Origin: an uncultured Fidelibacterota bacterium
Lineage (GTDB): Bacteria > Fidelibacterota > Marinisomatia > Marinisomatales > UBA1611
Reading direction: 5' to 3'
Length of the DNA: 48,661 nt
NCBI GenBank assembly: GCA_902611135.1
Contig: CACLYL010000005.1
Span: 1-48,661, forward strand
The notes under the pieces were generated by a model, which saw only the letters and a program-made list of their open reading frames with translations, was not told where the DNA came from and ran no database searches. Below are positions 15,068 to 16,105 of this stretch, piece by piece. Positions within the stretch are counted from its first letter, which is position 1. Every line of letters starts with the position of its first letter. The position numbers and the translations under genes were made by a program.

Positions 15068-16105
15068 ATGAAGTTAATTATTATATTTTTTATTTTTCTC
15101 TTTTCTTTATCTGCTCAATGAGCACTTTGAAATAACCCTTCGTTGCCGGTCGGCAACTCGGAAAAAGGTGTTGGTTTGTGGGCTGGTCAAGTTATGTTTA
15201 GTTCAGACCAGATGGTTGATTATATAGATTGGTTTCATGGTCCTTTAAGAGGAGATGATGAACAAAGGGACCATAGAGGCAATATGGTTTCATCTTTATT
15301 AAACCCCAAATTAACAATTGGGATTACCAATTATTGGAATTTAACGTTGGGAACAACAATCGGTCAAAGAAATATGGGTTGGGAAAGCGGGTTTAACTCA
15401 ATTCATCACAGAGATGAATCAACAAGTACAGACTTTGATAACTCGATCGGTGGATACCTCGGCGATAGTAAAATTATTGCAAATTATTTGGTTTTTAACG
15501 ATGGTCAGGGTATTGGAAAAAGGTTTTATCTAGGGGGGGGGTTAGTCATACCGTCTAAAAATACTTTAACCTCAGACCCCTTTTTTTTAAATGGTGAAGA
15601 AAGAGCGCAACATAGACACTTTAGTTTAAGTGAAGGTGTGTATAAAAGCATTTTTGAAACACAGTATTTTCTCAAAAGAAACACTAACCCTGTTTTTATA
15701 GGTGGGGTCTTTACATTAACAAGTCCTTTGATGGAAAACAACTACGGGTTTAAAAGCGGTACTGTTTACGATGTTGCACTCACTGGGATCACAAGAGAAA
15801 TAGTGCGGTTAAAGGGGGCTTTAGGGGGTAGCATAAATATTCAAAAAAACACTGGTTCATTTTGGAACGGAGAGTCTGCTCCAAACTCTAAATCTACCAT
15901 TCTTGTTTTTGGAATTAGTTCCGTCTGGAGCATTAAACATAGTGGAATAAATTTTAATATAAGGGTTCCTATCTTTTTAAAAGGTGGTTTTAATGAAGAT
16001 ATCGAAAACATTGATCAAGAAATAAAGGGGCTACAGATATCAATAGGCTACAGAAAAATATTTAATTGGACCGTTCCATGGATAGATCCACTAAAAGGTT
16101 TATAG
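15068..16105 (+). CDS. Predicted outer-membrane beta-barrel protein with two in-frame UGA codons (candidate UxxU selenoprotein or double nonsense)
   Basis: From the ATG at 15068 the frame encodes a clean signal peptide (MKLIIIFFIFLFSLSAQ), then TGA at 15119, Ala-Leu, TGA at 15128, and an intact reading frame to TAG at 16105. An ordinary gene caller would begin only at TTG 15143 and lose the signal peptide. The mature part (about 320 residues) has many short amphipathic strands and Gly/aromatic turns, as in outer-membrane transporter-like barrels; I recognise no named family. UGA cannot be read as a general sense codon because dnaA, mnmG and the DHFR-like gene end with it. UGA as selenocysteine would give U-x-x-U just after the cleavage site, the place where some exported barrels have CxxC. 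Alternatives are two nonsense mutations or sequence error. It is the only plus-strand gene left of the origin, and its stop overlaps the YggS stop. Confidence 0.7.
15142..15157 (+). promoter_or_regulatory. GC-rich hairpin with GGUC loop, SECIS-like
   Basis: GTTGCC (15142-15147), loop GGTC (15148-15151) and GGCAAC (15152-15157) form a perfect 6-bp stem with a 4-base loop. A lower stem is possible through TTC (15139-15141) and GAA (15161-15163) with a small bulge. The loop starts 20 bases after the U of the second UGA and 29 bases after the first. The E. coli fdhF SECIS has a GGUC apical loop at almost the same distance from its UGA. No T-tract follows, so it is not a terminator. The function is inferred from position and loop only. 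Confidence 0.5.

Follow-up and report, generated by a model that had tools for sequence, protein, structure and literature searches.

Two UGA codons, three codons apart and in frame, lie directly behind the signal peptide of a long gene in the DNA of an uncultured Fidelibacterota bacterium. Are they the scars of a decayed gene, a sign of a different genetic code, or codons that are read, and if they are read, as which residue and to what end? We addressed this in the 48,661-nucleotide stretch that holds the gene, referred to here as the window, by comparison with related genomes.

Two in-frame UGA codons in an otherwise open gene

On the forward strand, the reading frame runs from ATG 15068 to a TAG stop at 16103–16105 and is interrupted by TGA just twice, at 15119 and 15128. 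It begins MKLIIIFFIFLFSLSAQ-TGA(15119)-A-L-TGA(15128)-NNPSLPVG, after which 324 codons are open up to the TAG, in keeping with the long intact body described in an earlier note on this DNA. Read through, the frame gives signal peptide-Q-U-A-L-U-N-N-P-S-L-P-V-G, and the coding sequence (15068–16105, + strand), which we annotate from phylum-wide conservation and purifying selection as a putative outer-membrane barrel selenoprotein of the UxxU type, comprises 345 residues including two selenocysteines (Sec). The export signal peptide, MKLIIIFFIFLFSLSA (15068–15115, +), was assigned by eye, with likely cleavage before Gln17. The earlier note had ended this signal at SLSAQ; the signal itself stands, and its end probably shifts to SLSA, which would make Gln the first mature residue and place the UGA codons at mature positions 2 and 5. 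Homologues have a hydrophobic leader that ends in (G/A/S/P)-Q directly ahead of UxxU.

The gene is alone on its strand. As named from reading of the open reading frames, a MATE-type transporter gene and a small conserved gene lie to its left, and yggS-gyrA-gyrB to its right. Standard gene calling with translation table 11 yields only a 320-residue frame from TTG 15143.

The UGA pair is conserved throughout the family

A protein search in which stops were counted and TGA was not required found homologues in 29 of 61 related genomes, nearly all with two TGA codons, and a profile search, likewise free of any requirement for TGA, recovered the family from 83 of 245 genomes in the Marinimicrobia phylum, which places the UxxU arrangement seen in the earlier note far beyond chance. 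All matches of the main copy that cover the N-terminus carry the TGA pair, apart from one UxxC and one CxxU sequence; these single-TGA exceptions belong to genomes G143 and G108, and their remaining codon is TGT (Cys). At either site, 68 of 69 non-redundant sequences have TGA and the remaining one has TGT: the first codon (Sec18, 15119–15121, +) is TGT in orthologue L146 alone, which is thus CxxU, and the second (Sec21, 15128–15130, +) in orthologue L145 alone, which is UxxC. Several of the loci among the homologues are fragments of metagenome-assembled genomes (MAGs).

When 84,980 bacterial and archaeal species were scanned with a TGA-bearing DNA pattern of the motif, 70 loci were returned, nearly all of them titled Marinimicrobia or Neomarinimicrobiota. 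Cys-coded patterns on genome contigs gave no relative, as expected since the family motif is UGA, and viral contigs and plasmids held no match to the UxxU family. Four UxxU genes (L081, L104, L119 and L109) lie in MAGs titled Methylococcales, Flammeovirgaceae, Rhodobiaceae and Bacteroidetes, labels that probably reflect misbinning or misnaming; a search of 346 genomes around the Flammeovirgaceae-labelled genome found no further UGA-bearing copy.

Pairwise dN/dS of the gene body is 0.06–0.26, indicating purifying selection, and together with the conserved UGA pair this argues that the TGA codons are not nonsense mutations. Nor are they miscalled bases, a possibility that the earlier note had raised against its own proposal, because more than 70 distinct sequences, assembled separately, share the motif. 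Within the window, TGA terminates 4 of 25 long frames; on this ground we rejected a genome-wide change of the code, as the earlier note had already done.

A covarying hairpin resembling a SECIS element follows the second UGA

A SECIS-like hairpin, TTGCC-GGTC-GGCAA (15143–15156, +), with its GGUC loop at 15148–15151, was recognised by covariation as a candidate element of recoding control. The loop starts 17 nt past the second UGA and 26 nt past the first. Across the 69 sequences, 95.7% of the paired cells are complementary, compared with a mean of 80% and a maximum of 83.6% in shuffled controls. Two pairs of the stem are invariably C-G and one varies between G-C, C-G, T-A, A-T and wobble, while the loop-closing positions, which are the third bases of a Pro and a Val codon, are G..C in 49 sequences and A..U in 20, without exception. 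In 68 of the 69, the hairpin exceeds its own synonymous recodings in stability (mean -8.7 versus -4.3 kcal/mol). The loop occurs as GGUC, AGUU or AGGU, with covarying outer bases. Both the UxxC and the CxxU variant keep the hairpin, in weaker form in L145, suggesting that either UGA can be served by one hairpin. An Rfam search gave nothing real at the locus; bacterial SECIS elements are, to our knowledge, not an Rfam family.

Selenocysteine genes accompany the gene

The genome from which the window derives encodes selB (323 bits over the curated cut-off), with a selA-like 455-aa open reading frame, identified by reading, directly upstream of it, and selD (359 bits), which has an in-frame UGA of its own in SHGAGUACKIG. 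Three of the four sel genes that the earlier note named are thus present; a search of this 58%-complete assembly (G000) with RF01852 and a 33-nt pattern did not find the fourth, selC (tRNA-Sec), its best match being a tRNA-Ser. A tRNA-Sec with anticodon tca is clear in relatives. Four other genomes (G001, G010, G017 and G019), some of them more than 90% complete, have selB and no convincing tRNA-Sec; assembly gaps or a diverged tRNA-Sec are possible reasons for its absence from selB-bearing genomes. Judged from these sequence comparisons, the window gene almost certainly encodes a selenoprotein with Sec at both UGA codons, and such decoding would be expected in the living cell.

Cysteine is the only substitute seen for selenocysteine

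Throughout the homologues and paralogues, Cys is the sole residue seen in place of Sec at both sites. Inspection of the homologous N-termini, which the earlier note had proposed as a check, found UxxU, UxxC, CxxU and CxxC, and no Trp or unrelated residue. Tandem paralogues adjoining the UxxU gene are CxxC in L149 and CxxU in L150 and L202. The motif of these paralogues reads QC-A-(M/L)-(C/U)-N-x-P-P-P-P-x-GG (from about 4088 in L149), and a DUF3179-like gene lies alongside. Cluster 31 of L149 and L150 (L150 open reading frame MVRKLTFQIF...) is another exported barrel-type protein, with GQACC straight after its signal peptide.

More distant homologues with CxxC (L189, L190 and L200) come from another phylum, probably Bacteroidota, and have Q-x-C-P-A-C-S-N-P at the aligned place, where the UxxU family has Q-U-P-L-U-S-N-P; the two groups align in hhalign with a probability of 99.2% (E 5.9e-20). 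They also share HHRxE, HxH and W-x-G..PNSG. The distant homologues differ in having Cys for Sec and a CPAC that is offset by one residue inserted after the Gln, and their identity to the UxxU family is about 18–19%.

The protein is predicted to form a 12-stranded barrel, with a possible N-terminal plug

An AlphaFold2 model built with 59 homologues (mean pLDDT 87.1, pTM 0.83) predicts a 12-stranded beta-barrel with strands from residue 41 to 335 (15188–16072, +). The best PDB match in Foldseek is 4rl8, a COG4313 channel (E 6e-10). In that channel, Pput2725, the lumen takes up the first 14 residues of the chain, which enter from the periplasm (PMC4493636). At the corresponding lumen-plug position, the UxxU family has a conserved tail, xNPSLPVG....G (15131–15187, +), with invariant N23, P27, G29 and G34. 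By analogy with the COG4313 plug, the UxxU tail may sit in the barrel lumen; its residues 12–28 have pLDDT below 50 in the model.

Two conserved histidine motifs fall on predicted loops: HHRDE at residues 113–117 (15404–15418, +), between strands 3 and 4, and H-R-H at residues 182–184 (15611–15619, +), between strands 5 and 6. H113, H114, E117, H182 and H184 are also present in the CxxC homologues, and by the usual topology of such barrels the two motifs, HHRxE and HxH across the family, would be extracellular. The window protein has no single dedicated metal-binding fold, no match to a solved structure by sequence and no match to a Pfam family, for which last reason we file it as COG4313-like and not as a member of COG4313/PF13557; 2 of 24 family members match PF13557 (E 4e-6). 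The predicted barrel, together with sites held by Sec or Cys only, selA, selB and selD, and the SECIS-like hairpin, upholds the earlier note's proposal of an outer-membrane-type UxxU selenoprotein.

Neighbouring genes point to soft metals in relatives

In relatives from other families of the phylum, the UxxU gene lies among genes for MerT/MerTP, MerA, MerB, CopZ-type proteins and ArsR-type metalloregulators, with CusA/CusB, multicopper oxidase and HMA genes as further neighbours. An independent search with PF02411 found MerT in 20 of the 245 phylum genomes. In 12 of these 20 (G012, G034, G047, G110, G126, G135, G147, G188, G190, G194, G196 and G198), MerT lies at most 6 kb from the UxxU gene, in 10 of them within about 2 kb, where a simple proportion gives a chance expectation of less than 1% per genome for MerT within 6 kb. 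The genes of the three CxxC homologues are likewise found in clusters, with HMA-thioredoxin plus MerTP, MerA, ArsR or a metal P-type ATPase. The window's own lineage has the UxxU gene without mer neighbours, and the PF02411 search found no MerT in the 58%-complete genome G000 or in most of its family; with no MerT in its own genome and the gene standing alone, a mer function is ascribed to the window protein by analogy.

Further metal-associated genes were seen around the family. In L206, L207 and L208, from another phylum, an undescribed CxxC outer-membrane barrel stands beside HMA-thioredoxin, accompanied by MerTP/MerA or by a metal P-type ATPase, which suggests an outer-membrane part in mer-type systems. 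Two flavoproteins resembling MerA and lipoamide dehydrogenase (L158:3407-4789 and L178:11676-13055, both on the minus strand) have their redox site altered by an in-frame UGA, to GGTUVNEGC in place of CxxxxC, and lie near MerB and the UxxU family; from their sequences, they are possibly selenoprotein disulfide or mercuric reductases. Directly 3' of a UxxU barrel gene, L151:5648-6352 (+) encodes an HMA-rhodanese fusion with MTUHSC (UxxC).

A proposed soft-metal trap or gate and its alternatives

We propose that SelB and Sec-tRNA would decode both UGA codons, one downstream hairpin serving the two, to give an outer-membrane barrel of the COG4313 type with 12 strands. Its mature N-terminus, Q-U-x-L-U-x-N-P-x-L-P-V-G, would be the counterpart of the lumen-plugging tail on the periplasmic side. 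The two selenols, with the histidines of the extracellular loops, could bind a soft metal, Hg(II) first and also Cu(I) or Ag(I), which might either be gated through the barrel or be passed to periplasmic carriers of the HMA or MerT type. In selenoproteins of metal resistance, Sec may serve as a metal ligand, according to the sections of a 2026 review of the prokaryotic selenoproteome that were at hand (PMC13188914). As a whole, this account of an outer-membrane UxxU selenoprotein that captures soft metals of the Hg type appears probable to us. Metal binding and the direction of transport are its conditional parts, and at the level of chemistry we lean, with slightly less assurance, towards metal over redox. 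Its most specific form is offered tentatively, at a little under an even chance: a phylum-wide diselenol on the plug of an outer-membrane barrel, acting as a trap or gate for mercury or soft metals, with one SECIS for two Sec 9 nt apart.

A redox function without metal is rather unlikely. In such a case, a diselenide would sense oxidants, gate the barrel, or reduce disulfides or peroxides. Both UxxU and CxxC are spacings classically associated with redox chemistry, UxxU being known in Prx-like selenoproteins (PMC9312934, PMC2398784), and pelagic lineages carry the UxxU gene without adjoining metal genes. However, the protein has no thioredoxin-like or other redox fold, and the model places UxxU in an unstructured tail. 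Since metal-resistance genes adjoin the UxxU gene in relatives and also the genes of Cys homologues, capture or gating of a soft metal is favoured over a purely redox role. The earlier note had remarked that a redox pair would fit at a CxxC-like site; the site is borne out by the Cys homologues, and the redox pair becomes one option, with the neighbourhoods pointing rather to soft-metal binding.

It is quite improbable that the UGA pair serves mainly as a regulatory stop, at which partial Sec insertion would tie the expression of an ordinary barrel to the supply of selenium. Recoding in E. coli is 30–40% efficient (PMC4513850), so two consecutive UGA codons would cut the yield strongly. Yet only U or C occupies the sites, and unrelated lineages have CxxC, which indicates that the side chains matter, and a pure switch could do without two codons at a fixed spacing that matches CxxC.

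Read-through of UGA as Trp is common in biology generally, and a near-cognate or suppressor tRNA could in principle insert Trp or another residue here. We rejected this reading as very improbable, because both sites hold Cys or Sec only in every homologue; the covarying SECIS-like hairpin, the Sec genes and the use of TGA to end other genes here also speak against it. That the gene is a pseudogene disabled by two nonsense mutations, that its sequence is in error, or that a short gene begins at TTG 15143, the only start that table-11 callers would give, can be dismissed as vanishingly improbable on conservation, with the identical two codons in so many separately assembled sequences, a gene body under purifying selection, and a TTG that lies inside the hairpin, downstream of a conserved signal peptide and motif.

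Significance

The phylum that bears this gene is among the common uncultured phyla of the ocean, and as gene callers stop at the signal peptide or use the false TTG, a widespread protein is probably mis-annotated everywhere. The UxxU gene enlarges the selenoproteins by a family whose outer-membrane barrel has two Sec, makes a natural exchange of Sec and Cys visible at each site, from UxxU through UxxC and CxxU to CxxC, and offers a compact case in which one SECIS hairpin apparently serves two close UGA codons. Should the metal reading prove right, marine selenium use would be tied to outer-membrane defence against mercury and other soft metals, and mer operons in other phyla would be suspected of having an outer-membrane partner that has gone unrecognised. 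If the protein is indeed a trap or gate, it would supply mer-type detoxification with a step at the outer membrane that is absent from the literature consulted, including the available portion of the selenoproteome review (PMC13188914).

Comparison with known systems

The UxxU outer-membrane barrel is a new selenoprotein family. The earlier note did not recognise such a protein as described, and we found it in neither Pfam nor NCBIfam, where release 20.0 gave no family for the window protein and only chance-level matches for 23 other members; nor does it appear in the accessible text of the 2026 review, which includes the second half of the family table (PMC13188914).

Its closest structural likenesses are the COG4313 channel Pput2725 (4rl8), PF13557 Phenol_MetA_deg and FapF (5o65), with which it shares a predicted 12-stranded barrel and an N-terminal tail before strand 1. 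Identity between Pput2725 and the window protein is about 12%, and no Sec or CxxC is reported for Pput2725 in the part of the paper available (PMC4493636). Conserved loops with HHRxE and HxHF set the UxxU family apart from COG4313 channels.

Among selenoproteins, the UxxU metal-binding (seleno)protein NF041115 and the MerT/CopZ selenoprotein NF045683 similarly have UxxU or Sec in proteins that handle Hg or Cu; however, they have HMA or MerT folds in the cytoplasm or inner membrane, are not outer-membrane barrels, and do not match the window protein. Sec in outer-membrane barrels is also seen in the GSU2204 family of the MtrB/PioB type (NF041027) and in the TonB-dependent receptor of the FCYXU type (NF049945), as given in the portion of the review at hand (PMC13188914); these have one Sec each and belong to other barrel families with other motifs, and neither model matches the UxxU family.

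At the RNA level, the SECIS of E. coli fdhF, checked against E. coli genomes, is likewise a hairpin with a GGUC tetraloop, 18 nt past the UGA, whereas here one hairpin appears to serve two UGA codons, 9 nt apart.
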